Notes under the pieces: model-generated
What the model was told of the DNA's origin: nothing
What the model saw: the letters and a program-made list of their open reading frames with translations, nothing else
The model's database searches: none
DNA from: Pseudohongiella sp.
Lineage (GTDB): Bacteria; Pseudomonadota; Gammaproteobacteria; Pseudomonadales; Pseudohongiellaceae
Length of the DNA stretch: 64,000 nt
NCBI GenBank assembly: GCA_030696315.1
Contig: JAUYSM010000015.1
Span: forward strand, 1-64,000
Direction of reading: 5' to 3'
Shown here: one piece after another, positions 5,916 through 47,348 of the stretch
How positions within the stretch are numbered: the first letter of the stretch is position 1
How the letters are laid out: every line of letters begins with the position of its first letter
Translations under genes and position numbers: made by a program

Positions 5916-6020
5916 TCAGCTCTTGTTGTTTTGTTTTTCCTTTTTTGCTGCCTTTTTCTCCTTTGGGCTCAGCAGTGGCTTTTTCTTGGTTTCTTTAACG
6001 CTTTTCTGTTCTTTGGCCAT
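5916..6020 (-). CDS. 34-residue lysine-rich small protein
   Basis: A very short frame with a strong ribosome binding site: GGAGGAATTATTT directly before the ATG at 6020. The product is 34 residues, starts MAKEQKSVKETKKKP, contains LSPKEKKAAKKEKQNNKS, and is about 40 percent lysine with no hydrophobic stretch. Similar 30-40 residue MAK-type basic peptides occur in pseudomonads and marine relatives; their function is unknown and could be nucleic-acid or ribosome related. Support comes from the near-consensus Shine-Dalgarno sequence and the family-like N-terminus. It stands alone between a PepSY-type gene and a divergent Crp-family regulator. Confidence 0.7.
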   Translation of the reverse strand: MAKEQKSVKETKKKPLLSPKEKKAAKKEKQNNKS

Positions 6021-10572: not shown

Positions 10573-10603
10573 AAAAGACGGCGAGTTGCAAAGAACATCA
10601 GGA

Positions 10604-10750
10604 CCACTAATAGCCAGCCGTGAGCGAACAACAAAAAATTGCCCGGAGCAATTTTTGGCGCTGCTTTAGCGGCGCCCCGAAGGGTGGCGGCCATGGATGG
10701 CTGCCACAATCAGACGCGAAGCGTCGTTGTGAGGAACGGCTGGCTAGTGG
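10604..10750 (+). repeat. Multi-hairpin repeat element, copy 1
   Basis: The 116-base core at 10621-10736 recurs with about 97 percent identity at 11873-11990, in the same orientation. It folds into four successive hairpins: AAAAATTGC/GCAATTTTT, GGCGCTGCT/AGCGGCGCC, GGCGGCC/GGCTGCC and GACGC/GCGTC. Outer arms CCACTA-AT-AGCCAGCCG (10604-10620) and CGGCTGGCTAGTGG (10737-10750) pair to close the whole structure. It lies between the lipoprotein gene and the ParD-like gene and encodes nothing convincing. It looks like a small non-autonomous mobile or structured repeat element. Confidence 0.85.
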
Positions 10751-10845
10751 TGGACCTGATAGTCCGGAGTGCTACGAAACAACTGACTTCACACCAAGCC
10801 CAAGCTGATATATGCTTCATATACAAACCATATATCGAGGCACTC

Positions 10846-11864: not shown

Positions 11865-11998
11865 CCGGGAAGTGAGCGAGCAACAAAAAATTGCCCGGAG
11901 CAATTTTTGGCGCTGCTTCAGCGGCGCCCCGAAGGGTGGCGGCCATGGATGGCTGCCACAATCAGACGCCGAAGGCGTCGTTCTGAGGAACTGCCGGG
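11865..11998 (+). repeat. Multi-hairpin repeat element, copy 2
   Basis: Core 11873-11990 (118 bases) matches the copy at 10621-10736 with four substitutions and a two-base gain. The gain lengthens hairpin four symmetrically from GACGC/GCGTC to GACGCC/GGCGTC, a compensatory change that argues for selection on structure. The outer arms differ from those of copy 1 but still pair with each other imperfectly (CCGGGAAG with CTGCCGGG). It follows the map stop codon by about 20 bases and may also serve as its transcription end. Confidence 0.85.
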
Positions 11999-20924: not shown

Positions 20925-21063
20925 AACAAAATCCTGTGACGATATTCAGATTTAAAAAATGGGGGCGGATTGTAACCCAAAGCGACGTTTATATGTTGCC
21001 CGCCGTTGTGCTGACACAGCGGCGAGAGTAACCTAACGATCATCGCGTCATGACAACAAATAG

Positions 21064-21115
21064 AAGAGTTCACAATAACAAGAGTTCACAATAACAAGGT
21101 TTCACAATAACAAGA
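21064..21115 (+). repeat. Tandem 16-bp repeat, three full copies plus part of a fourth
   Basis: The unit AAGAGTTCACAATAAC occurs at 21064-21079 and 21080-21095, with a one- or two-base variant AAGGTTTCACAATAAC at 21096-21111, then the first bases AAGAGG of a fourth. It ends 12 bases before the serine hydrolase start, so the last AAGAGG acts as its ribosome binding site and each unit carries a similar AAGAG string. Copy-number change by slippage could alter translation. Confidence 0.9.
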
Positions 21116-21127
21116 GGTCAGCCTGCT

Positions 21128-28730: not shown

Positions 28731-28747
28731 CTCTTAAAAACAGCTGA

Positions 28748-31700
28748 TCAGAACTGCATTAACGCTCTGGCATAGAAACGTCTGCCACGACCATCAAACA
28801 CCGCCGCATCATAATTTAATGCACCGTTATAGTGGAACGGGATAGTTGAGTTAAACGCATCCAACAGACCAAAGGTCAGCGTTGTCGTGCCCATATTGGT
28901 ATTGGCCCACTCGTGCACGTAGTTGTACTGCATATCAACACTGGAGTAACTGGAAATGGTGCGATTTGCTACCGTGCGCACGTAGTCGTTACCGTTATCA
29001 AAGGTGTCCTGGAACTGCAGATTGTCGTAACCACCAATAAACCGCCCGATCACCGATACGCTGTGCCTGAGTTCATTGCTGCTCCAGCCAATCGTCAGAT
29101 TACCTTTTTTGTCCGGCAACGAGCGCACTAGCGAACCATCACCGGTTGTACCTGCTGCGTCAAACAATCCTGTCTCACGCAGCCCCAGCTCCAACCCTGG
29201 CACATTGACCAGTTCATAACTGTTTACAAAGGTAAAATCGATACTGGTACGGAATCGACCCAGACCAGTCTGCCAGCGATAACCCAACTTGATGTCAGCA
29301 CCGTCTGAATGCACTTCACCTGCATTGATTGAGCGCTGCGAAATTGTAACCAATCCTGCCGTAGTACTTCCAAGTGAGCGCACCACGTCGGGCACCTGAT
29401 AGGTCAATGGATTGACCACACAATCAAGTCGGGACAGCGGAATTACACCACCGGCTGCGTTCTTGGATTTAGCAGGATCTTTTGTCCACACAGCTTCAAG
29501 TGCGGCCGGGTTACAGGGCGCGTACGGGCCAAGTCCGGCATACACAGCGCCAGGGCTGCTGGAGATAGTGCCGTTGTAAACATAATTGGCTGGATTTTTA
29601 GCCGCCTCATTAAATGCTGCGATCTCATGTTGGATTGAAGAGATGCCTGGCGCTGGCATCACCCGGTTCTTCACCTCAAATCGCCAGAAATCGATGTTGA
29701 CACTAGCGCCTTCCAGCGCTCCGCCAGGCGTCCAGATAAAGCCGGTGCTATAAGTGTTGGCGGACTCGTTACCGATGTCCGGCGCGGGTCGTCCAACAAT
29801 ATATGTTGAGTTAGGCTGAGCATTGTCATTAATAGCTTCCAACAATCCCGCACGCACTTCCTGCCTGCGAATCGGATCACGGAAGGTTGTTGAGCTGGAC
29901 TCCAGACCTTCTTTTTGAACACCAATATTAGGCGCACGGAATGACTGCGACCATGATCCCCTCACCAACCAATCGTCTGTCGGCCGCCAGCTCATCGCAA
30001 CTTTAGGAGTGACCTCGCTGCCAATAGATCCACCGTAGCTTTCCCAGCGCAGCGCGACCTGTGATTCAACTCTATCCCAGAATGGCAAAGACATTTCGGT
30101 AAACACTGCTTTTACATTGCGGTCATGGTCGTAGTTAAACGCACACATGGAGCATTCGTAATTGTTACTGACATAGTGGTAACGATTGGGCTTTCCGTCA
30201 CTTCCATACCCCAAAATAGCATTGGGCAGACCGGGTATATTGAGCTCGGGCGCAATGGATTTATTATTTTGCATGCGGTACTGAGCACCAAATGCAACTT
30301 GCGCCGTACCACCACGCATGTCGAACAATTCACCAGCGACCACCGCGTCAATAACACCTAATTTATTGCGTTTGTCGCCACGTCGCACCGTAGGCAACAT
30401 CCAGTCAATCATTTCCTGGCTGTTGGCCAAGGCAGGGTTAGTCATCTGGGTCAGGAACGGGTTATAGAATTGGCAACCACCCTGCCCATGGTTGTTGCTG
30501 GTGAGAGCCAGAGAAATACTCTCGCGTGTGGTATGCACAAATCCCGGGAAAAAGTACTGGGTAAAGTTTCTGGAGGTTGGAGTCTGCCAGAAACCTGGTT
30601 GACCGGAGAAGTTAAAATCACTTCGACCATTGGGCGTGCAGTTGGGACCTCCCAGTCCATTCACGGCAAGTTCGGCGCGATCACGTTGAAAGGTTTTATA
30701 TTCCAACTCAAAACTGGTGCCGCTCCAGGAATAACTGACATCGTAGTTGAACCGTCGATCGTTAAAAGCAGTAAATTCCCCTTTTAAGCCCATTTGGGCT
30801 CCCACTGTCTCAGTGAGGTTCATATTATTGTTAGCGCCATTACGTGGGGCATTACCGATGACGATATTGGAGGACATCGGGACGTTAGGCCCACCATTGG
30901 ACAAGGCTATTGGCGCGTTTGTGATATTGGCGGCTGAAGGTCTGGTCAAACCGACGGCCGGCGCGAAATGCCCCAACTCCATCTGCTGCCCGATAGCATT
31001 GGCATGAGACCCAGGGGCTGCCAGGAAGAAGCTGGGACCTCGGGCGCTATAAACACCACTATCCGCACGCTGGATATCACTTTTTGACCACTGCATAAAA
31101 CTGTAAAACTCGGCCGAGTCACTAAAACTATGATTAAACGCGGCCGCAACACTGTTACGCTCCATCCCTACGCTGAGCAGGCTCCACTGATAACTATACT
31201 CCCGGCAGGTTGAGTTGGGTTGGCCACGCTGGCTGGTATTGGTGCCGGTAAAAAACGGTGTGCCGTCAGTTGAGCTCAAACTCGAACACAGAGGATCGGT
31301 GAACAGGTTTGTGTTGGCATTGCCGCCCTCCGCTCCCGCCTGCGCCATCAATCCGGTATTAAGGTAACTGGTATTCAGACGCGACCCAAACGCCGCATTG
31401 GAAATCAAGGTGCCAAGGCCGCCAACACTGGCACTGAACTCGGAATTACCATCAAAATATCGGGCAGCTTCCAGAGGCACGGCGTCGCGACGAAAGCCCT
31501 CACCAGCCAACACAAAATGGGTAGTCTGACTGTCATTTGACCAACCCCAGATCGCGCTGACAGTACGATCCTGTTTGCCGGGTTCGGTCGCCAGCGCCTG
31601 CAGATCACCATATATTTCAAGACCTTCAAACTCGGTACGCATGATCACGTTGACTGCACCGGCAACAGCGTCCGACCCGTAAAGCGCTGAACCACCATCG

Positions 31701-32257
31701 GTCAGCACTTCCAATCGCTCCACCATTACCAAGGGAATGGTATTGATATCAACAAACTCACCCCCGGATGGTGTGGTGGTTGCCGCAGCAACCTGTCGTT
31801 TGCCATTGATTAATGTCAGCGTTGAGTTCTCGCCAAGGTTGCGCAAATTAACGTTGGCTGTGCCCGACAAGTTGCCCATGGCAGCATTACCACCATCGGT
31901 GCCTTCGTTGGTAATGGAACCGGAGTTTATCTCAAGATTTTTGATGACGTCCCATATCTGCGCGGCGCCTTGCGCCTCAATGGAAGTCCTGTCAACAACG
32001 GTAACCGGTGACGGGGCATCAAGCGGACTGCCACGCAAATAAGATCCGGTGACAACAACTTCCTCAACTTCCCGCTCCTCTTCCGCGGTCTGTGAGGCCT
32101 GATTAGTTTGCGCAAATACAGGAAAACACGCTGCGGTTGATAACAATCCTGTCAGAAAAAGTGCTTTTTTTCGAAAACCAGGCCACTGACCGGGCGAGCT
32201 TAGATCTTTTGATTGGTAAGTTCTGGCGATAGGTCGAACAAGATATGAATGGCTCAT
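28748..32257 (-). CDS. Large TonB-dependent receptor, copy 1 of 3 in tandem
   Basis: A 1169-residue outer-membrane receptor. The start at 32257 has GGGGAG before it and gives a signal peptide ending near FPVFAQ; upstream in-frame ATGs are rejected. The plug begins after EVEEVVVTGSYLRGSPLDAP, includes LRNLGENSTLTLINGKRQV and EVLTDGGSALYGSDAVAG, and the barrel ends GRRFYARALMQF. It is about 250-400 residues longer than siderophore receptors; the extra length is in extracellular loops, one with a CSMC pair and others rich in Asn/Gly. Such large receptors often take up oligosaccharides or peptides. It is the most divergent of the three neighbours. No SusD or degradative enzymes are adjacent. Confidence 0.93.
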   Translation of the reverse strand: MSHSYLVRPIARTYQSKDLSSPGQWPGFRKKALFLTGLLSTAACFPVFAQTNQASQTAEEEREVEEVVVTGSYLRGSPLDAPSPVTVVDRTSIEAQGAAQIWDVIKNLEINSGSITNEGTDGGNAAMGNLSGTANVNLRNLGENSTLTLINGKRQVAAATTTPSGGEFVDINTIPLVMVERLEVLTDGGSALYGSDAVAGAVNVIMRTEFEGLEIYGDLQALATEPGKQDRTVSAIWGWSNDSQTTHFVLAGEGFRRDAVPLEAARYFDGNSEFSASVGGLGTLISNAAFGSRLNTSYLNTGLMAQAGAEGGNANTNLFTDPLCSSLSSTDGTPFFTGTNTSQRGQPNSTCREYSYQWSLLSVGMERNSVAAAFNHSFSDSAEFYSFMQWSKSDIQRADSGVYSARGPSFFLAAPGSHANAIGQQMELGHFAPAVGLTRPSAANITNAPIALSNGGPNVPMSSNIVIGNAPRNGANNNMNLTETVGAQMGLKGEFTAFNDRRFNYDVSYSWSGTSFELEYKTFQRDRAELAVNGLGGPNCTPNGRSDFNFSGQPGFWQTPTSRNFTQYFFPGFVHTTRESISLALTSNNHGQGGCQFYNPFLTQMTNPALANSQEMIDWMLPTVRRGDKRNKLGVIDAVVAGELFDMRGGTAQVAFGAQYRMQNNKSIAPELNIPGLPNAILGYGSDGKPNRYHYVSNNYECSMCAFNYDHDRNVKAVFTEMSLPFWDRVESQVALRWESYGGSIGSEVTPKVAMSWRPTDDWLVRGSWSQSFRAPNIGVQKEGLESSSTTFRDPIRRQEVRAGLLEAINDNAQPNSTYIVGRPAPDIGNESANTYSTGFIWTPGGALEGASVNIDFWRFEVKNRVMPAPGISSIQHEIAAFNEAAKNPANYVYNGTISSSPGAVYAGLGPYAPCNPAALEAVWTKDPAKSKNAAGGVIPLSRLDCVVNPLTYQVPDVVRSLGSTTAGLVTISQRSINAGEVHSDGADIKLGYRWQTGLGRFRTSIDFTFVNSYELVNVPGLELGLRETGLFDAAGTTGDGSLVRSLPDKKGNLTIGWSSNELRHSVSVIGRFIGGYDNLQFQDTFDNGNDYVRTVANRTISSYSSVDMQYNYVHEWANTNMGTTTLTFGLLDAFNSTIPFHYNGALNYDAAVFDGRGRRFYARALMQF

Positions 32258-32306
32258 AAACAACTCCCCGCACTTTTTATTGTTGATTGAGATCGTTGGG
32301 CATGCC

Positions 32307-32333
32307 GCGCTTCCTGCGACTGCAATTCGATAC
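32307..32333 (-). promoter_or_regulatory. Leader motif shared with the second large receptor gene
   Basis: Read on the minus strand, GTATCGAATTG(C/T)AGTCGC with (C)AGGA and GCGC following is nearly identical to a stretch at 36120-36147. Both sit about 50-80 bases before the start codons of receptors 1 and 2. Could be a promoter part or operator. Confidence 0.5.
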
Positions 32334-32511
32334 ATCGCTGACATTGATCCTTCAGATGCGTCAGCACAACAGGGAATTGGCTTGAGTTTATCCAATAAAA
32401 AGCCTCATAGCAATACTAATCGGTTTAGTTTGAACCATTTGAATGGAATAGACCGTTAATACATAAATCATTCTGATAGTAACTATATGCCATAATGATA
32501 AAACTTTAAAA

Positions 32512-32552
32512 AATCAATAAAAAACGGGGACATCCGTGAGGATATCCCCGTT
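32512..32552 (-). terminator. Intrinsic terminator of the second large TonB receptor gene
   Basis: On the minus strand AACGGGGATATCC, loop TCAC, GGATGTCCCCGTT, then a run of T. The stem has one internal mismatch. It lies 37 bases past the stop of receptor 2. Confidence 0.9.
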
Positions 32553-32588
32553 CTTTACATCAATTACCGACCGGTTATAAACCGTTGA

Positions 32589-35500
32589 TTACAGCTGCAA
32601 CAACACGCGCGCATACAGTCGACGGCCACGGCCATCAAACACACCTGCGTCGTAGTTGATACCACCGGCTTCACGGTAAGGAATGGTTGCGTTGAAGGCA
32701 TCCAATGCTCCTACGGTGAATATGGTGGTACCCATTCTTTCATTAGCCCACTCATGCGTGAAGCTGTACTGCAAATCCACACTGCGGTAGCTGTCAATAC
32801 GACGGGTCAGCAATGCACGAACTTCATCATTGGCCGTACGGAATGTATTGTCATAAGCCAGATCCCGGTAAGAACCTATAAAGCGGGTAATAATGGCTGC
32901 GCTGTGATTATCCTGCATCCAGCTCAGGCTGATATTGCCCTTTTTATCCGGCAGTGAACGCACCAGGTTACCGTCACCGGTGGTACCGGCAGCGTCAAAC
33001 ACGCCGGTTTCCAACAGTCCCAGTTCCAGGCCGGGAACATCGGTCAGTTTGTACTGACGGACATGGGTGTAATCCATGCTGGCACGGAAACGGCCCCAAT
33101 CGTTGTTCCAGGTGTAGCCGACTTTTAAGTCAACACCGTCTGCAGTAATTGTACCAGCGTTGATGGTACTCAGCACCGTTGTGGTCAATGCACCTTGGTT
33201 AGTACCAAACGTACGCACCACACCTTCGATCTGGTATGCCGCCGGGTTAACTACGCAATCCAGGCGAGAGCCTGGTGTAACGTTGTTATAACCGGTCACG
33301 CCACCCACACCACCTTGAGTAGCGGGGTTGGTACCAAACTGTGCTGCCAACGCGGCAGGATTACAGGGTGTGTACTGATCCATCGCAGCCCATGCACCGG
33401 TTCTGGTTGCCGGGATAGTGCCGTTCAACACGTAGTTGGCTGGATTGGCTGCAGCCTGTTTAAACAGTTCCAGTTCATCTGCAATTGCAGAAATACCAGG
33501 CTGAGGCAGTACTTTGTCAGTCAGATCAAAACGCCAGAAATCGGCGTTTACGCTCAAACCTTCCCAAACGCCTGATCCAGTCCAGATGAAACCGGCGCTG
33601 TAGGTGTCAGCATATTCATTGCCAACATCAGGCGCAGGTCCGCCCAAGGTGTAGGTAAAGTTTGGCAAAGCGTGATCATTGCTGACTGGCAGCAATCCTG
33701 CACGGACGGCCTGGTTACGCAGTGGATCGCGGAAGGTATTGCTGGATGACTCCAGACCTTCTTCCACAATGCCCACGTTCGGAGCACGGAACGACTGAGA
33801 GTATGACGCACGGAACAACAACTCATCCATGGCGCGCCAGCTCAATGCCACTTTAGGCGTGACTTCACTGCCGATGCGGCCGCCGTAACTTTCCCAACGC
33901 AGCGCAACCTGGCTTTCCACATTCTCAATCAGAGGCAGAGACAATTCACCAAACACGGCTTTGACATTGCGGTCATTGCTGTAGTTGAAGATACACTCAG
34001 AGCACTCAAAGTTGTTACTGACGTAATGTGTTCGGTTCGGTGCGCCATTAACCCCCCAATCCAGAATCGCATTCGGCAAACCAGGCTGGTTCATTTCAGG
34101 TGCTATGGAAGCGTTGTTCTGCATACGGTACTGCGCACCCACAGCAAACTGCGCGGTGCCGCCCCTAAGCTCCATCAACTCCCCGGAGATTACTGCATCA
34201 AGAACACCCAGTTTATTGCGCTTGTCCGCACGTTTGATGGTCGGATTCATCCAGTCCATCAACTCTTGTGAGTTTGCCAATGCCGGGTTGTTCATCTGAG
34301 TCAGGAACGGGTTGTAGAACTGACAACCACCCACACCCATGTTGTTACTGGTCAACGCCAGTGCCAGACTTTCGCGGGTTGTGAACACAAATCCTGGGAA
34401 GAAGGTCTGGGTATATCCGTTGTAATACGCCTTGTTACTGACGTTCCACATAGTGGGCACTGCGCCACCAAAGGGACCAGGTGCATCACGGAAGTTGAAA
34501 GTGCTGCTGCCGTTTGGTTTGCAGTTTGGACCACCCAGTCCGTTAGCCGCCAATTCAGCGCGGTCACGCTGGAAGGTCTGGTACTCTTGCTCAAAGCTGG
34601 TGCCGCTCCAGGAATAACTCACGTCGTAGTTAAAACGACGGTCATTCATGGCGTAGAACTCGCCTTTTAATCCAGCTTGCGCACCTAATGTTTCAGTGTC
34701 GGTCACATTGGTATTGCCGCCCTGGCGCGGGGCATTACCGTTCCAAACGGTTGTGTAGAACGGTACGTTCAGTCCGCCATTAGCCAATGCGTTGGGCACA
34801 TTCGGGATATTGGTTGGACGGGTCAGGCCAATATTGGGTGCGTAGTAACCCAGTTCGGCACTCATACCGATGCCGTAACCACCAAATGCCGGGTTGCCGG
34901 CATGTGATCCGGGTGCTGCCAGAAACACAGTTGGACCACGGGTACCGTTGGCGCCAGAATCTGAGCGCTGAATAGACGACCCGGAATACTGGAAGAATGA
35001 ATAAAACTCGGCCTTGTCACTGAAGGTGTGATTAAACGCGCCAGCAATGCTGTCACGCTCCATACCCACAGTCATGTAGCTCCAGTCTTCCGTGAACTCA
35101 CGGCAGGCGCCGCCGTTGTTGCCGCGCTGATCCGTTCGGGTTCCCGTGAAGAATGGGCGTCCATCGGCGCTCTTTAATGAATAGCAAAGCGGGTCTGTCA
35201 ATATCTGAGTCGCAGAGCCGCCCTCGGCCACGTTTCGCGCCGTGATTGCGGTATTGATATAAGCCGTGTTGATGCGTGAACCAAAAGCAGGGTTGGCCAT
35301 GGTGGCACTGATATTCCCCGCAAGACTGCCGACAACTCCGGTGTACTCAACGTTTTCATCATAAAAACGGCCATATTCCACTTTGACAGGATCTCGTCGG
35401 AAGGCTTCCGCAGAAATCACAAAATGTGTGTTGCCGCTATCACTTGCCCAGCCCCAGATGGCGCTGGCCGTCTGATCCTGATCACCGCGCGCAGCATCCA

Positions 35501-36068
35501 GTGCCTGCAGATCACCGTAAATTTCAAGACCTTCAAAATCGGTACGCATGATGACGTTGACCACGCCGGCCACCGCATCAGATCCGTACAGTGCTGAACC
35601 GCCATCGGTCAACACTTCAACACGTTCTACCATGACCAATGGGATGGTATTGATATCCACAAACTCACCGCCGCTGCGTGTGACGGTTGCAGCAGAGACC
35701 TGTCGTTTGCCATTGACCAGGGTCAATGTGGAGTTTTCACCCAGGTTACGCAGGTTGACGTTTGCGGTGCCTGACAAGGCACCACCTTCACCTGAGCCTT
35801 CGTTAGTGAATGACCCGGAGTTGATTTCGAGATTCTTGATGACGTCCCAGATCTGGGCAGCGCCTTGTGCTTCGATTGACGTTCTGTCAACCGTTGTAAC
35901 CGGCGAAGGTGCATCCAGTGGACTGCCCCGCAGATAGGAACCGGTAACTATAACTTCTTCAATATCAGCGTCTGTATTTGCCTGCTGTGCAAATGCTGGC
36001 AGACAACTGACGCTTGAAATAATACCCAGCAGCAATGCATTTTTGCGGAAACCAGGTCTTGTCGACAT
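32589..36068 (-). CDS. Large TonB-dependent receptor, copy 2 of 3 in tandem
   Basis: A 1159-residue receptor with signal peptide ending at LPAFAQ, plug starting EEVIVTGSYLRGSPLDAP, and barrel ending GRRLYARVLLQL. GAGGGGG precedes the start. It matches copy 3 over the whole length (identical lengths of 1159 residues) more closely than copy 1. An extracellular loop carries a CSEC pair at the position of CSMC and CSQC in the sisters. The substrate is unknown; the conserved plug and varied loops suggest related but distinct ligands. Own promoter region (375 bases upstream) and own terminator, so transcribed singly. Confidence 0.93.
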   Translation of the reverse strand: MSTRPGFRKNALLLGIISSVSCLPAFAQQANTDADIEEVIVTGSYLRGSPLDAPSPVTTVDRTSIEAQGAAQIWDVIKNLEINSGSFTNEGSGEGGALSGTANVNLRNLGENSTLTLVNGKRQVSAATVTRSGGEFVDINTIPLVMVERVEVLTDGGSALYGSDAVAGVVNVIMRTDFEGLEIYGDLQALDAARGDQDQTASAIWGWASDSGNTHFVISAEAFRRDPVKVEYGRFYDENVEYTGVVGSLAGNISATMANPAFGSRINTAYINTAITARNVAEGGSATQILTDPLCYSLKSADGRPFFTGTRTDQRGNNGGACREFTEDWSYMTVGMERDSIAGAFNHTFSDKAEFYSFFQYSGSSIQRSDSGANGTRGPTVFLAAPGSHAGNPAFGGYGIGMSAELGYYAPNIGLTRPTNIPNVPNALANGGLNVPFYTTVWNGNAPRQGGNTNVTDTETLGAQAGLKGEFYAMNDRRFNYDVSYSWSGTSFEQEYQTFQRDRAELAANGLGGPNCKPNGSSTFNFRDAPGPFGGAVPTMWNVSNKAYYNGYTQTFFPGFVFTTRESLALALTSNNMGVGGCQFYNPFLTQMNNPALANSQELMDWMNPTIKRADKRNKLGVLDAVISGELMELRGGTAQFAVGAQYRMQNNASIAPEMNQPGLPNAILDWGVNGAPNRTHYVSNNFECSECIFNYSNDRNVKAVFGELSLPLIENVESQVALRWESYGGRIGSEVTPKVALSWRAMDELLFRASYSQSFRAPNVGIVEEGLESSSNTFRDPLRNQAVRAGLLPVSNDHALPNFTYTLGGPAPDVGNEYADTYSAGFIWTGSGVWEGLSVNADFWRFDLTDKVLPQPGISAIADELELFKQAAANPANYVLNGTIPATRTGAWAAMDQYTPCNPAALAAQFGTNPATQGGVGGVTGYNNVTPGSRLDCVVNPAAYQIEGVVRTFGTNQGALTTTVLSTINAGTITADGVDLKVGYTWNNDWGRFRASMDYTHVRQYKLTDVPGLELGLLETGVFDAAGTTGDGNLVRSLPDKKGNISLSWMQDNHSAAIITRFIGSYRDLAYDNTFRTANDEVRALLTRRIDSYRSVDLQYSFTHEWANERMGTTIFTVGALDAFNATIPYREAGGINYDAGVFDGRGRRLYARVLLQL

Positions 36069-36119
36069 GGATGTTCCCCCTCGTGATTATTATTGTTGAA
36101 AGCATTCGATTGGTCGTTC

Positions 36120-36147
36120 GCGCATCCTGGCGACTACAATTCGATAC
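36120..36147 (-). promoter_or_regulatory. Leader motif shared with the first large receptor gene
   Basis: On the minus strand GTATCGAATTGTAGTCGCCAGGATGCGC matches the 32307-32333 motif with few changes. The surrounding 200 bases are otherwise unlike, so the block is conserved beyond its flanks. It is absent upstream of receptor 3. Confidence 0.5.
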
Positions 36148-36369
36148 TACTCCGGCGCCATATCCATAAAAGTGTCCGGAAATACAGGGAATCGATCTGA
36201 CTCTAACCAATTGAACATGTCAACGCAACATAATTTGAACGGGTTCACAGTTGAAGAGGTCAGCTCCCATGACAGGTGTCACCATAAGAAACACGTGCGT
36301 ACCAAAATCAAAAAAATTGACAATTTGTCAGCTATTTAACAGCAAACATCAGGCACTTTTTTAACGTAT

Positions 36370-36400
36370 AAAAAAGCCCCGGTGTTTTAAACCGAGGCTT
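36370..36400 (-). terminator. Intrinsic terminator of the third large TonB receptor gene
   Basis: On the minus strand AAGCCTCGGT, loop TTAAAAC, ACCGGGGCTT, then six T. Located 44 bases past the stop of receptor 3. Confidence 0.9.
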
Positions 36401-36443
36401 TGATTAGGGCAGGTCAATCAGGCCCAACGGGCCAGTGATGTGA

Positions 36444-39400
36444 TTACAGCTGCATCAACACACGTGCATACAGACGACGTCCGCGACCATCAAATACCGA
36501 GGCATCATAGTTGATAGCGCCAGATTCGCGGTAAGGGATAGTCGCATTAAATGCATCCAGTGCGCCGACCGTGAAAATGGTGGTGCCCAAACGCTCGTTT
36601 GCCCACTGGTGCGTGTAGTTGTATTGCAGATCCACACTCTGGTAACTGTCGACTGTTGGCTTCATCACCGCACGTACCGCATCGTTTGCGGTACGGAAGG
36701 TGTTGTCGTACGCCAGGTCGCGATAGGAACCCACAAAACGGGTAATAACCGCAGCGCTGTGTTGTGACTGCATCCAGCTCAGGCTGATATTGCCCTTGTT
36801 GTCTGGCAGTGAACGCACGAGGTTGCCATCGCCGGTAGTGCCCGCTGCATCAAACACGCCGGTTTCCAGCAATCCCAGCTCGAGGCCTGGCACGTTCTGC
36901 AGCAAGTATTGACGCACATGGGTGTAGTCCGCAGACGCGCGGAAACGACCCATATCAGTTTCCCAGCTATATGCAATTTTGAGGTCAACACCGTCTGCGG
37001 TGATTTCACCTGCATTGATTGCCTTCAACTGTGTAGTTGTCAATGCACCCTGGTTGCTGCCGAATGAACGAACGACACCGTCCACTGTGTACGCCGCTGG
37101 ATTAACAACACAATCCAGACGTGAACCCGGCGTGACGTTGTTAAATCCAGTTACGCCGCCCACTGTTGCCTGCGTCGCCGGATTAGTGCCGAACTGTGCA
37201 GCCAATGCCACCGGATCGCAAGGTGTGTACTGGTTCATCGCCGCCCAAGCACCGGTGCGTGTTGCTGGAATGGTGCCATTCAGGATGTAGTTAGCCGGGT
37301 TGGCTGCCGCTGCTTCAAACGCTGCCAGTTCGCCGGCAATCGCGGAGATACCGGGTTGTGGCAGCACTTTGTCAGTCAGCTCAAAGCGCCAGATATCTGC
37401 CGTTACACTCAGACCGTCCAGAGCACCTGACGGCGTCCACACAAATCCGGTGCTGAAGGTATCCGCATACTCATTACCAACGTCCGGTGCAGGCGCACCC
37501 AGCGTGTAGGTTGAGTTAGGCAATGCATAATCGTTACTTACAGGTAACAGACCCGCACGAACTGCCTGGTTACGTAGCGGATCGCGGAAGGTGTTACTTG
37601 CCGCTTCCAGGCCTTCCAGTACGATGCCTGAGTTTGGTGCACGGAATGACTGCGAGTAAGAACCACGGAACAACAGGTCATCGCTGGCGCGCCAGCTCAA
37701 AGCAACCTTGGGCGTCAACTCTCCACCAATGTTTCCGCCGTATTCTTCATAACGCAGCGCAATCTGCGACTCAATGTTCGTCCAGAACGGCAACGAAAGT
37801 TCGGCAAATACTGATTTCACATCGCGTGTATTGTCGTAGTTAAACGCACACTGTGAACATTCAAAATTGTTGCTGACGTAGTGCGTTGTGTTTGGCGCAC
37901 CATTGCGGCCATAACTCAGAATCGCGTTCGGGATACCTGGCTCGTTGAGGATAGGAGCAATCGACTTGTTATTCTGCTCGCGGTATTGTCCACCCACTGC
38001 AAACTGCGCCATACCACCACGCATTTCAGTCAATTCGCCAGAGATTACCGCATCCAGCACGGCCAGTTTATTACGCCTGTCTGAACGCTTGATCACCGGG
38101 TTCATCCACTCCATTAACGCCGGATCATTGGCGAGCGCAGGATTGGTCATCGCCGTCAGGAAGGGGTTATAAAACATGCAACCATCTTTGCCCTGGTTGT
38201 TACTGGTCAGCGCCAGCGAAATACTCTCGCGCGTCGTGAATACAAATCCGGGGAAGAAAGTCTGCGTGTAACCGTTGTAGTACGCCGCATTACTGACGTT
38301 CCACATGGTTGGCAGTGCGCCGCCCAATGGGCCAGGCTCGTCCCTGAAATTAAAGTTCTTGATGCCATTCGGTGTACAGTTGGGGCCACCCAAGCCATTA
38401 ACGGCAAGTTCCGCGCGGTCACGCTGGAAAGTCCGGTACTCTTGTTCAAAGCTGGTACCGCTCCATGAATAGCTGACATCGTAATTAAAACGACGATCAC
38501 CAGCGGCATAAAACTCGCCTTTTAAGCCTGCCTGTACACCCAGTGTTTCGGTGTCAGTGACGTTGTCGTTGCCCCCGGTTCTCGGGAAATTACCGGCGTT
38601 GATGGCGTTGTAAAACGGTACGTTGAGGCCGCCATTTGCCAAGGTATTAGGCGAATTGGGGATGCTGGTCGGACGCGTCAGACCGGCTTTGCCGGCATAG
38701 TAACCAAGCTCTGCCGTCTGGCCGATGGCATAACCACCCCAGGCTGGATTGCCGGCGTGTGAGCCAGGCGCAGCCAGGAATACGGTTGGGCCGCGAGATA
38801 CGTTGGCGCCTGAATCAGCGCGCTCAATCGACGTGCCAGAGTATTGGAAAAATGAATAAAACTCGGCTTTTTCGCTGAAAACATGGTTGAACGCACCGGC
38901 AAAACTATCACGCTCGGTACCAACCTGCATGAAGTTCCACTCATCTGTGTACTCTCGGCATACACCACCATTGGAACCGCGCTGATCTGTGCGGGTACCC
39001 GTAAAAAATGGGGTACCGTCGGCTGATGTCAGTGTAGAACACAGAGGATCAGTCAACACCTGAGTCGGGCTGCCGCCTTCAGCAATATTCTGTGCTGTAA
39101 TGGTATTGTTCAGATAAGCGGAATTGATGCGCGAGCCGAACGACGGGTTAGCCATCGTGTTACCGATTGTCCCGGTGATGGAACCTACCTGGCCAGAATA
39201 CTCAACGTTTTCATCATAAAAACGACCAAACTCGACCGGCACACCGTCGCGTCTGAACGCCTCGGCTGATATCACAAAGTGTGTGTCACCACTGTCGCTG
39301 GCCCAGCCCCAGATTGCGCTGACTGTTTGATCCTGCTTGCTGGTGGCCGACTCCAAGGCCTGCACATCACCGTAGATCTCCAGTCCTTCAAAATCGGTGC

Positions 39401-39923
39401 GCATGATGACGTTGACCACACCAGCCACTGCGTCCGAGCCATAAAGTGCAGAACCACCATCGGTTAACACTTCTACACGCTCGACCATCACCAAGGGAAT
39501 GGTGTTGATATCCACAAACTCGCCACCGCTGCGGGTTGTGGTTGCTGCAGACACCTGACGCTTTCCATTCACCAGTGTCAGCGTGGAGTTTTCACCCAGG
39601 TTACGCAAGTTGACGTTTGCAGTACCAGACAGCGCATCGCCTTCGCCAGCACCTTCATTGGTGAATGAACCCGAATTGATCTCCAGATTTTTGATGACAT
39701 CCCAAACTTGAGCCGCTCCCTGTGCTTCGATGCTGGTTCTGTCGACGGTGGTTACCGGAGAAGGTGCATCAAGCGCACTGCCTCGGATATAAGAACCGGT
39801 AACAACTACTTCTTCGATTTCGTCTTGCCCTGCATTCTGAGCAAACGTTGGCAGACAGGTGATTGCTGTCATGACCCCAATAAACAAGCGGGTCCTCTTG
39901 TTATTCCCAAGCCGTGTGGACAT
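36444..39923 (-). CDS. Large TonB-dependent receptor, copy 3 of 3 in tandem
   Basis: A 1159-residue receptor with signal peptide ending LPTFAQ, plug EEVVVTGSYIRGSALDAP and barrel ending GRRLYARVLMQL. The start at 39923 has GAGAGG upstream; a longer frame is rejected because its first 23 residues precede the signal. The closest relative is copy 2: long stretches such as SRGPTVFLAAPGSHAGNPA-type loops are shared. An extracellular loop carries a CSQC pair. Single-gene transcript by its own terminator. The three genes probably arose by successive tandem duplication and then diverged. Confidence 0.93.
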   Translation of the reverse strand: MSTRLGNNKRTRLFIGVMTAITCLPTFAQNAGQDEIEEVVVTGSYIRGSALDAPSPVTTVDRTSIEAQGAAQVWDVIKNLEINSGSFTNEGAGEGDALSGTANVNLRNLGENSTLTLVNGKRQVSAATTTRSGGEFVDINTIPLVMVERVEVLTDGGSALYGSDAVAGVVNVIMRTDFEGLEIYGDVQALESATSKQDQTVSAIWGWASDSGDTHFVISAEAFRRDGVPVEFGRFYDENVEYSGQVGSITGTIGNTMANPSFGSRINSAYLNNTITAQNIAEGGSPTQVLTDPLCSTLTSADGTPFFTGTRTDQRGSNGGVCREYTDEWNFMQVGTERDSFAGAFNHVFSEKAEFYSFFQYSGTSIERADSGANVSRGPTVFLAAPGSHAGNPAWGGYAIGQTAELGYYAGKAGLTRPTSIPNSPNTLANGGLNVPFYNAINAGNFPRTGGNDNVTDTETLGVQAGLKGEFYAAGDRRFNYDVSYSWSGTSFEQEYRTFQRDRAELAVNGLGGPNCTPNGIKNFNFRDEPGPLGGALPTMWNVSNAAYYNGYTQTFFPGFVFTTRESISLALTSNNQGKDGCMFYNPFLTAMTNPALANDPALMEWMNPVIKRSDRRNKLAVLDAVISGELTEMRGGMAQFAVGGQYREQNNKSIAPILNEPGIPNAILSYGRNGAPNTTHYVSNNFECSQCAFNYDNTRDVKSVFAELSLPFWTNIESQIALRYEEYGGNIGGELTPKVALSWRASDDLLFRGSYSQSFRAPNSGIVLEGLEAASNTFRDPLRNQAVRAGLLPVSNDYALPNSTYTLGAPAPDVGNEYADTFSTGFVWTPSGALDGLSVTADIWRFELTDKVLPQPGISAIAGELAAFEAAAANPANYILNGTIPATRTGAWAAMNQYTPCDPVALAAQFGTNPATQATVGGVTGFNNVTPGSRLDCVVNPAAYTVDGVVRSFGSNQGALTTTQLKAINAGEITADGVDLKIAYSWETDMGRFRASADYTHVRQYLLQNVPGLELGLLETGVFDAAGTTGDGNLVRSLPDNKGNISLSWMQSQHSAAVITRFVGSYRDLAYDNTFRTANDAVRAVMKPTVDSYQSVDLQYNYTHQWANERLGTTIFTVGALDAFNATIPYRESGAINYDASVFDGRGRRLYARVLMQL

Positions 39924-42531: not shown

Positions 42532-42567
42532 AACGAGAATCATTACTTGACGATAATGGTTCTCGTT
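42532..42567. promoter_or_regulatory. Fur box upstream of the siderophore receptor
   Basis: Inverted repeat AACGAGAATCATTA / TAATGGTTCTCGTT (13 of 14 positions symmetric) around eight bases. It contains GAGAATCATT-type Fur half sites and covers the -35 element of the promoter at 42547-42575, so bound Fur-iron would block transcription. Confidence 0.8.
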
Positions 42568-42575
42568 TGTATTAT
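42547..42575 (+). promoter_or_regulatory. Promoter of the siderophore receptor gene
   Basis: TTGACG (42547-42552), 17-base spacer, TATTAT (42570-42575): a near-consensus sigma70 promoter that overlaps the Fur box. The transcript leader is about 80 bases. Confidence 0.75.
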
Positions 42576-42659
42576 GCGCCTCATTCAGAGGGCGTAACTG
42601 CAAGACTTGCCTTACTCCCCTGCGACACAAACCCCTTTGTTGTACCGGGAGCACAACAC

Positions 42660-44786
42660 ATGCATCACAACACGTCATCCGTTTTTTCACTCCGCAGCAA
42701 ACGCCGCCCTCTAGCAGGCGCCATTGCGCTGCTGGGCGGCAGCCTGATGCTGCAACAATCTACGCTGGTTCTAGCCCAAGAAGAGGAGCCGGTTCTGCGC
42801 CTGCCCACCATCCTCGTGATTGGTGAAAATCCTGCTGACGTGTCGCGACAACCAGGTGCTGTGTCACTGGTACAACTGGAAGAATTGATACTGAGGCAGC
42901 CACGCTCAACTGAAGAAGCCCTGCGCACGGTGCCCGGCATTACCATCAAGCCCGAAGAGGAAAGCGCGATAGTTGCCAACATCGGCATGCGCGGCCTGAG
43001 TTCAGGGGACTATAAAACACTGATTCTGGAAGACGGTGTACCCGTCGCTCCCGGTCTGTTTGTGGGTAATGGCCGTTATTACAACCCCCGCATCCAACGT
43101 ATGGAAGGTATTGAGGTGCTTAAAGGTGCAGCATCCCTGCGCTACGGCCCAAGCACCATCGGAGGCGTGATCAATTACGTCACCAAACAGCCGCGTGATG
43201 GCGTGGAACTCTCATTGCGAGCAGGCTCCTGGAATACACAGGAAGCCACACTGGAAGTGGGTGGCAGCTCAAATTCAGGTGACGCCACGTTTGGTGCCAT
43301 CATAAACAATGTCAGCAGTGACGGTTTTCTGAACAAAGCCTACGACACTACCGATATCATGATCAAAGCCGGCATGGCTATTGGCAATAACCAGCGTATC
43401 AGCGTGAAATATGCTGACTACAGCAACGATGCCAATATCTCTTATCGCGGACACTTCCTGCAGGAATATCGCAATGACGCGCGAAACAACCCTGCCCCGG
43501 ATGACTATTTTCTGACTGAGCGACGCTCGCTGGACGTCAACCATCAGTGGGACATCAACCCGTCAGCGCAACTCAACACGCTGGTATTTGGTAGCGAAAT
43601 GTTCCGCGATTACTGGCGTTTTAATACCAATAACGCAGCCTCTGCCGCCGCTGGCAGCTGGGTTTATACCGACGTTCTAAATGGAAACAACCGCGCGTTT
43701 GAACGCTTTGGTGTTGATACCCGCCTGCTGATTGATCACCAGTTGTTTGGTGTATCAAGTGAAACAGAACTCGGACTGCGCTACATGGACGAGGAAATGG
43801 ACGACAAAACCGTGCAGGCAACCCGGGCCACCCCGCGTACCGGCCCATTGGGCAAAGACACGCTGGACACCGCCGAGAGTTATGCGTTGTATGCCCAAAA
43901 CCGCTTCTTGTTGACGGACAACGTCGCGCTGACGGCAGGCCTTCGTATTGAACAGTACGAGCAAGATCGGCTGGATCTGCGTCGCACCGCTGCACAAGGT
44001 AATTTTGCGTCAACCGACAACACTGAAGTGATGCCTGGTGTCGGCATGAGCTGGCAGATAAACCCTGAGTTACAACTGTTCGGCAGTGTGTACAAGGCCT
44101 TCTCGCCGTCATTAAACAGCGATTCCCTCAATGGTCTGCAAGACCAGCAGCTGGACGCTGAGCGCTCCGTTAACATCGAGTTTGGCTTACGTGGCGCTAA
44201 CCCGCGTATGAGCTACGAATTTGCGATGTTCCGTATGGATTTTGATAACCAGATAATTCCAGCCAACAGCAACTCACAATTTCAAGTGACCAACGGCGGT
44301 GAAACCCTGCATCAGGGCCTGGAGTTTGGATTAGGGTTTGACTTGGGATCAGGTTTTAGCCTGAACACCAATGCTACCTATGTGAGCGATGCCGAGTTTA
44401 GAGGCAATCGCCTGGCGCGCAATGGCGCGATCACCACACCGGATGGCAACCGTATTCCTTACACTCCTGAGTGGACTGGCAATATGTCGCTGGAATACGA
44501 AACCGGAAATCTGCGATCAGGGCTCAGTATTCATCACACCAGTGCACAGTACACGGATGTCTTGAACACAAAAGCTATCACAGAAAGTACCAGTGGATTT
44601 TTTACCGGTCAGACGCCGTCATACACTATTGCTGATCTGTTCCTGGTGTATTCCATCAATGATCAGCTGACGGTGAATGCTGCGGTGAAAAATCTGCAAG
44701 ACAAGCGTTACATCGCCAGCGTGCGTCAGGGTATTTATGTCGGCCCGGAGCGCAGCATTGATGTGGGTCTGCGTTACCGTTTTTGA
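42660..44786 (+). CDS. TonB-dependent siderophore receptor, FecA-like
   Basis: A 708-residue iron-complex receptor. The start at 42660 has GGGAG nine bases upstream and gives a signal peptide ending at TLVLAQ. The plug (about 30-165) includes NIGMRGLSSGDYKTLILEDG, VEVLKG-type sequence and YGPSTIGGVINYVTKQP; the barrel ends IDVGLRYRF. No N-terminal signalling domain for an anti-sigma factor is present, so it does not control its own sigma factor. Iron repression is expected from the Fur box over its promoter. The likely ligand is an iron-siderophore or citrate complex. Confidence 0.93.
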   Translation: MHHNTSSVFSLRSKRRPLAGAIALLGGSLMLQQSTLVLAQEEEPVLRLPTILVIGENPADVSRQPGAVSLVQLEELILRQPRSTEEALRTVPGITIKPEEESAIVANIGMRGLSSGDYKTLILEDGVPVAPGLFVGNGRYYNPRIQRMEGIEVLKGAASLRYGPSTIGGVINYVTKQPRDGVELSLRAGSWNTQEATLEVGGSSNSGDATFGAIINNVSSDGFLNKAYDTTDIMIKAGMAIGNNQRISVKYADYSNDANISYRGHFLQEYRNDARNNPAPDDYFLTERRSLDVNHQWDINPSAQLNTLVFGSEMFRDYWRFNTNNAASAAAGSWVYTDVLNGNNRAFERFGVDTRLLIDHQLFGVSSETELGLRYMDEEMDDKTVQATRATPRTGPLGKDTLDTAESYALYAQNRFLLTDNVALTAGLRIEQYEQDRLDLRRTAAQGNFASTDNTEVMPGVGMSWQINPELQLFGSVYKAFSPSLNSDSLNGLQDQQLDAERSVNIEFGLRGANPRMSYEFAMFRMDFDNQIIPANSNSQFQVTNGGETLHQGLEFGLGFDLGSGFSLNTNATYVSDAEFRGNRLARNGAITTPDGNRIPYTPEWTGNMSLEYETGNLRSGLSIHHTSAQYTDVLNTKAITESTSGFFTGQTPSYTIADLFLVYSINDQLTVNAAVKNLQDKRYIASVRQGIYVGPERSIDVGLRYRF

Positions 44787-44807
44787 TGGATAGAGGATAG
44801 TGTGGCC

Positions 44808-44990
44808 GCACCGGCGGAGTTGGGCAGATTCAGACCGGCCACATCCATTCACAGGACACCGGACGCTGCGCAACTCCTCCTCAGGCGCTGCGCGCCTTGC
44901 GAAGTCGAACAGTGCTCGCGTTTATCCCGGTGTCCTGTGAACGGATAAACGTGGCCTGACTGGTCTGAACCTGCCCAACTCCGCCGGTGC
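44808..44990. repeat. 183-bp near-perfect palindrome (long inverted repeat with 64-base loop)
   Basis: Left arm 44808-44862 (55 bases) pairs with right arm 44927-44990 (64 bases): 53 of 55 left-arm positions match, with five- and four-base bulges in the right arm. The 64-base loop holds a second hairpin GGCGC-TGC-GCGCC at 44884-44896. It fills the gap between two convergent genes and has no credible ORF or obvious target-site duplication. Far longer than an intrinsic terminator. It could be a miniature inverted-repeat element, a structured RNA or both. Confidence 0.9.
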
Positions 44991-45020
44991 TCTCACGTCT
45001 GGCTGCAACATCCGCTCAAA

Positions 45021-47348
45021 CTATTTTTTATTCTTCAGGGCCTGCTCAAACAACGACGCCATTGTTCCCGTTGAGCGCTTGTTTTGCGCAGCCGCATCAA
45101 AGTCCTTTTTGCGTTTTGCCGACTCCGCGGTCGTTGGTGCCGGTCGGGCTCCTTTGGGTGCCCCCTCGGTTGGCAACGGATCAGACAAACGCAAGGTCAA
45201 CGCAATACGCTTACGCTCCTTATCAACCTCCAACACTTTGACCTTCACAATTTGCCCGGCTTTAACCACTTCATGCGGATCTTTGACAAATTTTTCCGAC
45301 AATGCCGAGATATGCACCAGACCATCCTGATGCACCCCAATATCCACAAACGCCCCAAAATTGGTGACGTTGGTGACCGTACCTTCCAGCGTCATGCCCG
45401 GCACAAGATCCTTGAGCTCTTCCACACCTTCCTTGAGTTCAGCGGTTACAAACTCGCCACGCGGGTCACGACCAGGTTTTTCCAGTTCACGCAGAATGTC
45501 CTGAACCGTGGGTAGACCGTATTTTTCAGACACATAATCACTGGCTTTCAGACTGCGCAGAAATGCACCATCGCCGATCAACGACTTGACACTTCGTCCA
45601 TGGCGGCGCGCGATCTCTTCTACCAGAGCATAAGACTCGGGATGCACCGATGAGGCATCCAGAGGATTTTCACTTTCCTGTACACGTAAAAAACCGGCTG
45701 CCAATTCAAAGGATTTTTCGCCAAAGCGTGGCACCTTTTTTAATTGCTCCCGGGTCCGGAATTGGCCGTTTTTGTCCCGGAATTCAAGAATATTGTTGAC
45801 CAGGGCCTGCGTTAATCCCGAAACCCGCTTTAACAAAGGTGCTGAGGCGGTATTGATATCCACGCCCACCGCGTTTACGCAATCCTCCACCACCGCATCG
45901 AGAGAACGTGACAATTTCACCTGGCTGACGTCGTGCTGATACTGACCCACGCCGATAGATTTCGGTTCAATTTTTACAAGCTCCGCCAAGGGATCCTGCA
46001 AACGCCGCGCGATGGACACCGCACCACGAATCGTCACATCTAAATCCGGCAGCTCCAGTGACGCAAACTCCGACGCCGAATAAATAGAGGCACCAGACTC
46101 ATTCACAATCACTTTTTTGACTTTGAATTGCGGAAACGCTTTACAGAATTGCGCAACAAAACTGTCCGTTTCACGTGATGCCGTTCCGTTACCAATACTG
46201 ATCAGTTGCGCATTGTATTTTTCGCACAACTTCTTCAACACCAGCGCTGCTTCTTCAATCTTGTTTTGTGGCGCATTTGGAAAAATGGCACCGTGATCCA
46301 ACACCTTGCCAGTCTCATCAACAACCGCAACCTTCACGCCGGTGCGCAAACCAGGGTCCAAACCGATAGTCACCTTTTTGCCGGCAGGCGCGGCCAGCAG
46401 CAGATCCTTGATGTTGCGCGCAAATACTTCAATGGCATCGGTTTCTGCCTGATCGCGCAGCTCGGTCAGAAAATCGGTCTGCAAATGTGTGTGGACTTTC
46501 ACTCGCCAGGTCCAACGCACTACGTCTTGCAGCCAGCTGTCTGCTGCACGTCCCTGATCCTTGATCTGCCAGTGATTGGCAATCATGGCTTCGCACGGGT
46601 GTTTGACGGGCGGGGCGTCCGGGTTGACCGGGATTTCAATTTTGAGATTCAGTATGCCTTCATTGCGCGCACGAAACAGTGCCATGGTGCGGTGTGATGG
46701 AATTTTGGTGACCGCTTCGGAGAAGTCAAAATAATCGCGGTACTTGGCGCCTTCTTGCTCTTTGCCGACAATCAATTCCGACATCAAGTGCGCGCTGTTC
46801 CAGAAATAGTCGCGTAGTCGACCCAGCAAGGTTGCATCTTCACCAAATTGTTCAATCAAAATGTAGCGCGCGCCTTCCAGTGCCGCTTTGACATCTGCAA
46901 CGCCCAGTTCTGCGTTTACATATGCGGCAGCCTCCTGCTCCGGATTCAGTGCAGGGTTGGCAAACAGAGCATCGGCAAGCGCCTGCAATCCGGCTTCACG
47001 GGCAATCTGTGCACGTGTACGACGCTTGGGTTTGTAGGGCAAATACAGGTCTTCAAGGGTGGTTTTGGTGGATGCAGCCCGTAGCTGTGCCTCCAGCTCC
47101 GGCGTCAGCTTCTGTTGTTCTGCAATACTTTTGATGATGGCATCACGCCTGTCATCCAATTCACGCAGATACAGCAAGCGCTCCTGAAGTTTACGTAACT
47201 GTATATCGTCGAGGCCCCCGGTTACTTCTTTGCGATAACGCGCAATAAATGGCACGGTTGCGCCGTCATCCAGCATGGCAACAGTCGCAGCAACTTGTTC
47301 CGGGCGCGCAGCAATTTCTTCAGCTATCTGATCAAACATCAATGACAT
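45021..47348 (-). CDS. tex: Tex transcription accessory protein
   Basis: A 775-residue RNA-binding protein conserved in bacteria. The N-terminal YqgF-like/HHH parts ([40 protein letters not shown], then LLKRVSGL) and the C-terminal S1 domain (about 655-725, with [21 protein letters not shown] and DGLVHIS) are all present. It has a role in transcription and RNA metabolism through the S1 domain. Normal length, with a lysine-rich tail. Transcribed downstream of trmJ on the same strand, 9 bases after its stop, so probably one operon. Confidence 0.96.

Follow-up and report, generated by a model that had tools for sequence, protein, structure and literature searches.

The 183-nt palindrome at positions 44808–44990 of a 64,000-nt stretch of Pseudohongiella sp. 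contig JAUYSM010000015.1 (hereafter the window) is a member of a large dispersed family of hairpins and not a one-off structure. Our comparisons show that the fold of this family is conserved, that its arms co-vary and that its bulges are fixed. On balance, we favour the interpretation that these hairpins are oversized REP/REPIN-like elements that are maintained in folded form on the strand facing away from the upstream gene, read by a protein and copied or moved in trans.

The left arm of the palindrome (44808–44862, 55 nt) faces a right arm of 64 nt (44927–44990), with matches at 53 of the 55 left-arm positions, and the right arm carries the bulges TGACT (44957–44961) and AAAC (44947–44950). 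A third one-sided bulge, TTTAT (44921–44925), lies on the same arm, and the 64-base loop encloses a hairpin of its own, AGGCGC-TGC-GCGCCT (44883–44897). The initial annotation had placed this palindrome exactly, with two bulges on one arm and a hairpin in the loop, but had mentioned neither the third bulge nor the tail that follows the hairpin (44991–45004). Folded as RNA, positions 44787–45020 reach −139.5 kcal/mol (z −12.2), and folded as DNA, positions 44800–45000 give z values of −12.6 and −12.2 on the two strands; none of 200 shuffles folded as well in any of these three folds. When the whole window was scanned for perfect 14-mer inverted repeats within 400 bp, they were found only at this hairpin. 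Its reported position between convergent genes is likewise correct. The flanking genes encode a TonB receptor (42567–44786, +) and tex (45021–47348, −), names that we assigned from reading the translations, and the hairpin fills most of the 234 bases between their stop codons. Two mechanically called ORFs of 84 aa overlap the hairpin ends (44619–44873, −, and 44987–45241, +), but neither looks like a gene because both run antisense through a long gene. The hairpin comprises the following features.

44804–44812, + strand: start motif GGCCGCACC, recognised from the sequence and from similar starts in other copies.
44808–44836, + strand: left arm, outer helix, copy-specific sequence; pairs with 44962–44990.
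44837–44842, + strand: left arm, short middle helix GGCCAC; pairs with 44951–44956 and is conserved in alignments A1 and A3.
44843–44862, + strand: left arm, inner helix, copy-specific sequence; pairs with 44927–44946.
44866–44876, + strand: left half of the conserved apical block, CTGCGCAACTC; most positions vary little or not at all in A1, and the block is present in other phyla.
44883–44897, + strand: apical mini-hairpin, with a C-GCA-G triloop on the − strand, from the sequence and a loop survey.
44909–44919, + strand: right half of the conserved apical block, ACAGTGCTCGC; again with little or no variation at most positions of A1, and likewise present in other phyla.
44921–44925, + strand: one-sided bulge A, T-rich; 4–5 nt in 96/96 full copies.
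44927–44946, + strand: right arm, inner helix; pairs with the left inner helix.
44947–44950, + strand: one-sided bulge B, AAAC; 4–5 nt in 96/96 full copies.
44951–44956, + strand: right arm, middle helix GTGGCC, from the sequence and arm pairing.
44957–44961, + strand: one-sided bulge C, TGACT; 5 nt in 96/96 full copies.
44962–44990, + strand: right arm, outer helix; pairs with the left outer helix.
44991–45004, + strand: tail TCTCACGTCTGGCT behind the hairpin; missing along with the hairpin in the G005 allele.

Among 94 copies, in which stem ends were placed only roughly, the most frequent starts include GGCCGCAC, GGCCGCGT, GGCCGCAT and AGCCGCAA, with 3–4 copies each, and a few tail types recur. 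When the register is set so that GGCC faces GGCC, the family consensus of bulge C reads TGATT.

A plain nucleotide search of the own genome returned 11 further matches at E ≤ 0.001, ten of them 66–78% identical and one a short piece at 93%. Copies with both arms have a similar loop, whereas their stems differ yet still pair. From 51 aligned copies, 47 pairs were predicted, and 39 of these had changed on both sides. The covariance model R1 built for the family covers 151 positions, beyond which the outer stem continues for a median of 15 further pairs (94 copies). With the best 150 of 735–1739 candidates scored per genome, this model detected the hairpin in all 15 genomes of the genus, with at least 233 matches at E ≤ 0.001: G012 contributed at least 44 of them, G008, which is assembled as a single contig, 31, G014 27 and the own genome 21, and each of the others at least 5–16. 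Blastn with the window copy revealed it in only 11 of the 15. A family with stems that differ almost completely between copies and a shape that stays is difficult to detect by sequence similarity alone. These counts bear out the suggestion in the initial annotation of a BIME- or MITE-like repeat, in that the hairpin is dispersed, and the fold-back assembly artefact that it had also considered is refuted by the number of matches across 15 genomes, among which is a single-contig assembly.

In the order, at least 29 of 390 genomes and at least 13 of 142 genera were positive, with the own genus accounting for seven of these genomes and one of these genera and the other 22 genomes lying outside it, and in the class sample at least two of 369 were, namely the own genome and one partial match; as only the best 7–8 candidates per genome were scored under strict filters, carriers outside the genus are undercounted and 'no match' does not equal absence. 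Plasmid and phage collections contained no match to the window copy. Two stretches from viral contigs carry the bare apical pattern, one of them (L299) with a weak model match.

The pattern of the two apical blocks was found in at least 119 stretches from species genomes, two of which (L213 and L292) are records of the genus. Of the 136 pattern matches outside the genus that could be scored, 69 had a true inner helix (score of at least 9; the other 67 fell below this threshold, and five of 141 strict matches were dropped at a contig edge), whereas only 5 of 2720 placements drawn at random in this DNA did. By this inner helix, 65 of the 117 non-genus loci qualify. According to the record titles, the qualifying Pseudomonadota include Azoarcus, Dechloromonas, Thauera, Gallionella, Thiobacillus, Marinobacterium and Halioglobus, and other titles name Coriobacteriia, Patescibacteria (Magasanikbacteria, Falkowbacteria and Uhrbacteria), Myxococcota and Desulfobulbaceae. 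At least four other phyla are represented among the records in which the apical module is accompanied by a real helix, although single taxonomic assignments may be wrong because many records are metagenome bins. The covariance model gave 49 matches at E ≤ 0.001 in 80 of the at least 119 pattern stretches plus the two viral loci. One public record titled Rhodoferax sp. OV413 (L213) contains a hairpin practically identical to copy L037 of G010, and the genus in its title is doubtful.

The conservation of shape was quantified in 99 distinct aligned copies. In these, 94.5% of the stem cells were paired, against 68.9% with shuffled partners, and the covariation score was 0.598, against 0.151 with shuffled partners and at most 0.081 with slid partner columns; the alignment was fitted to the model, so that the pairing and bulge counts lean towards structure. 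Model-free helices beside the apical blocks, chosen by score, had median lengths of 20 positions for genus copies and 13 for copies outside the genus, among which L213 and L292 were counted. Any two copies share approximately 41% of the stem letters and 75% of the loop letters, and the similarity between the two members of a hairpin pair does not exceed that between random copies. Between copies at least 95% identical, we counted 14 single-arm and 5 double changes, and between copies 80–85% identical, 527 single-arm and 1053 double changes (comparisons overlap in both classes). The dominance of double changes with increasing divergence fits the compensation of mismatches over time. All three one-sided bulges are kept in each of the 96 full copies among those aligned. 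Bulges fixed across a family in this way do not support the earlier view that they are indels after an originally perfect inversion. The other view offered at the time, selection for a bulged RNA, is right in that the bulged hairpin is kept, but an RNA form is disfavoured by the evidence given below.

In the genus, the upstream gene points at the hairpin in 42 of 54 cases, counted among copies at least 800 bases away from either end of their locus. Outside the genus, an upstream gene of the same orientation was found in 32 of 53 cases, which is not significant (80 of the at least 119 stretches, with crude ORF calls and L213 included). Distinct neighbouring copies within 700 bp were convergent in 21 of 21 cases in the aligned set and in 13 of 13 by a pattern-based count, seven of these in the genus. 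Some pairs have members that start alike (GGCCGC in L047) and others do not, and no clean target duplication was seen. Six hairpin pairs stand 0.9–1.3 kb apart with ordinary or unknown genes between them, among which no transposase was recognised by eye; the intervals examined give no sign of a larger transposon with inter-hairpin cargo, an idea that we set aside. In two species, a pair of convergent hairpins encloses a gene of the same membrane-protein family, identified by eye (L058, 10211–10942, and L063, 8708–9460), and in G008 the same interval holds an antitoxin/toxin-like gene pair. No recurrent mobility gene was present beside the hairpins in 111 loci, where the most widespread neighbour clusters are ordinary and occur in at most seven loci each.

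At the window locus, two convergent hairpins are present in G010 and G003, one in G000 (the own genome) and G001, two degenerate ones in G014 and none in G005. On contig C52 of the own genome, positions 5982–6008 (L013) form an apparent deletion scar of a sister copy, in which the start motif and the tail TCTCACGTCTGGCT remain; at the matching locus of G001 (L064), that hairpin is still complete. Hairpin turnover is thus visible in the varying window locus and the apparent scar. The empty site envisaged in the initial annotation has a counterpart in the G005 allele, which carries no hairpin but can equally be explained as a deletion. A search of candidate loci for clean insertion into an empty site yielded no unambiguous case; as these candidates could also be deletions, it is the copy number and the scattered sites that point to mobility.

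The mismatches within the stems indicate which strand folds. On the strand of the upstream gene, A.C mismatches outnumber G.T mismatches by 127 to 39 (p 4e-12 if the cells were independent, which they are not), and by sequence 57 lean one way and 11 the other. This count omits two columns of fixed G.T (159 cells), with which it becomes 198 G.T against 127 A.C. We regard these columns as a register artefact, because in an alternative bulge register both G's face C's, and 78 of the 99 copies then have Watson-Crick pairs at both positions. A model-free count of the inner helix, which is free of the register problem although its cells are not independent either, gave 25 A.C against 4 G.T in the genus and 27 against 6 outside it; the latter divide into 9 against 0 in other genomes of the order, a weaker excess of 17 against 6 in public pattern hits (p 0.03) and 1 against 0 in viral loci. 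Each A.C corresponds to a G.T on the complementary strand, which suggests that it is on the strand opposite to the upstream gene that the fold is kept. The same excess of A.C could also result from biased correction, if repair eliminated G.T from the other strand.

Wobble on the opposite strand amounts to only about 3% of the cells (127/4338). Outside the genus, 77 of 96 apical triloops are TNC closed by C-G, which corresponds to C-GNA-G on the minus strand, and in the genus this form is found in only 18 of 34. The C-GNA-G loop is unusually stable in DNA. Wobble that is low for an RNA, together with this loop, favours a single-stranded DNA hairpin, although low wobble speaks for DNA only indirectly. 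We infer that the selected form is a single-stranded hairpin of the strand opposite to the upstream gene, with DNA more likely than RNA.

The most serious alternative is a structured RNA, which we consider unlikely but worth weighing; selection would then act on an RNA hairpin in a 3'-UTR or between genes that serves as a stabiliser, a terminator or a substrate of RNase. It is consistent with the very stable RNA fold of the window hairpin, with the strong covariation and with the position of the hairpins directly 3' of genes in the genus. On the strand of the upstream gene, however, G.U is rarer than A.C, the reverse of what selection of an RNA predicts there, and the opposite strand also shows too little wobble to suit an RNA. 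A simple consensus scan of positions 44600–45200 found no promoter-like site and no T-tract or terminator-like site, and an ordinary intrinsic terminator was rejected on these grounds. Rfam returned no match in the window, only two matches to one miRNA family, far below its cut-off, in 12 loci of the own genome and only an rRNA in 18 other loci; with no family at gathering score for the hairpin, membership of a known Rfam family was rejected as well. The long double-stranded RNA hairpin from read-through that had been suggested initially is possible but disfavoured, given the result of the consensus scan and mismatches that point to the opposite strand.

According to our preferred reading of a REP/REPIN-like element kept as a folded strand, the unit would be the hairpin of approximately 180 bases with its stacked helices, three one-arm bulges and conserved apical module, in many cases arranged as convergent pairs. 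The bottom strand would become single-stranded during replication or repair and then fold, and a protein would recognise the bulges and the apical module of the folded strand. This protein may copy or move the element in trans, often as convergent pairs, and the intergenic spots behind genes may be the places where copies survive. Resident copies may, in addition, insulate convergent genes from each other. A broader and more doubtful proposal, which we put forward tentatively, is that the family represents cross-phylum mobile DNA with single-stranded DNA hairpin ends of approximately 180 bases, recognised through fixed bulges and a conserved apical module and not through sequence tags, and that the enzyme moving it is distinct from both Y1/HUH transposases and integron integrases.

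A neutral origin is improbable. Under this explanation, the palindrome would be a relic kept by template-switch repair between its arms (quasipalindrome correction), and its fold would have no function. Template switching can create and maintain hairpins, as stated in the accessible part of PMC8794818, and the apparent hairpin-deletion scar L013 accords with such a process. The copying of one arm from the other should, however, erase one-arm bulges, yet three persist in all full copies, and the apical module and the middle helix are conserved across genera.

Mobilisation as a REP by a resident RAYT/Y1 (HUH) transposase is largely refuted and in our judgement very improbable, although the organisation of the hairpins is REP-like. 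The accessible part of PMC3733652 describes REPs as forming inverted dimers, often with differing stems and mostly downstream of genes. Judged against that account, REP, BIME and REPIN elements and the hairpins are alike as dispersed intergenic palindromes that form inverted dimers, many with differing stems, and the hairpins likewise lie downstream of genes in the genus, though not significantly so outside it. They differ in length, as REPs have 20–40 bases and the hairpins approximately 180 (183 nt in the window), and in the stacked helices, fixed bulges and apical module of the hairpin family, which also has neither a GTAG or CGTC tag nor a link to RAYT. Near the hairpin base, GTAG occurred in 11 and CGTC in 16 of 94 copies, against 8 and 22 of 94 in a random control. 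A RAYT of approximately 240 aa is encoded in nine of the 15 genus genomes (L101–L109; truncated in G008, L109), all of them among the 11 that were positive by blastn, which is in line with the RAYT explanation. The palindromes beside eight of these RAYTs, however, are others, of the type GGGGACGGAG. Together with them, the genus RAYT matches the TIRYT type, which the same accessible part of PMC3733652 defines as Y1 transposases flanked by inverted repeats with GGGGWSAS; these repeats are unrelated to the hairpin studied here. Genus genomes without RAYT are also rich in copies, for example G012, and hairpins occur in all 15 genomes. Y1 genes are no commoner in hairpin carriers (9/17) than in genomes without a match (8/13). 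No hairpin was found within the 1.5-kb flanks of 25 scanned Y1 loci (29 found), and 20 Y1 loci of the genus (24 found) gave only three blastn matches, of 17–22 bases.

Folded bottom-strand hairpins with extrahelical bases are also formed by attC sites, which carry the core boxes RYYYAAC ... GTTRRRY at their base. The hairpins resemble attC sites in being bulged, apparently strand-specific and fixed in orientation behind genes in the genus, and the own genome does encode an integron integrase (C9). An attC-type recombination site of a chromosomal integron is nevertheless hardly credible and was rejected, as mirror-placed R boxes were present in none of 94 copies, an integrase above the cut-off was encoded in 7 of 19 selected carriers and in 9 of 19 selected genomes in which no hairpin was matched, only one of seven integrase regions contained a hairpin (approximately 11 kb away), and copies are scattered beside ordinary genes instead of clustered at the integrase. 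In two integrase regions, no attC-like candidate passed a crude filter that proves little. The integrase gene of the own genome (G000:C9:4586–5527) scored above the cut-off, and broken or partial copies were observed in G001, G006 and G014.

ERIC sequences are intergenic imperfect palindromes of comparable length. The hairpin family, which we liken to them by description, is marked by arm co-variation and by an apical module shared across phyla. Our literature searches, mostly narrow multi-term queries with most subscription journals and bioRxiv outside their coverage, returned no description of the family. Judged by the searched literature, the family looks new, but dispersed palindromes between genes are as such a known kind of element. 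Should an enzyme use the fold as its substrate, the hairpin would mark unknown machinery acting on single-stranded DNA. Otherwise, the copies form a sizeable collection of natural experiments on the evolution of long hairpins and on their tolerance by bacteria.

The window contains further repeats. A second, different structured repeat is located at 10597–10765 and 11872–11997, where two genes named by eye, one ParD-like and one methionine-aminopeptidase-like, lie between direct repeats of 98 nt that are 98% identical. The first copy has a closing stem with several hairpins (z −9.6), and one loop hairpin shows a compensated difference between the copies (GACGC-GAA-GCGTC and GACGCC-GAA-GGCGTC). 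The own genome also contains another long copy of this repeat, on C23, along with seven short pieces. Three diverged repeats with a spacing of approximately 3.85 kb at 28745–39817 are probably three tandem paralogous genes, and a short tandem array with a 16-bp unit lies at 21056–21119.
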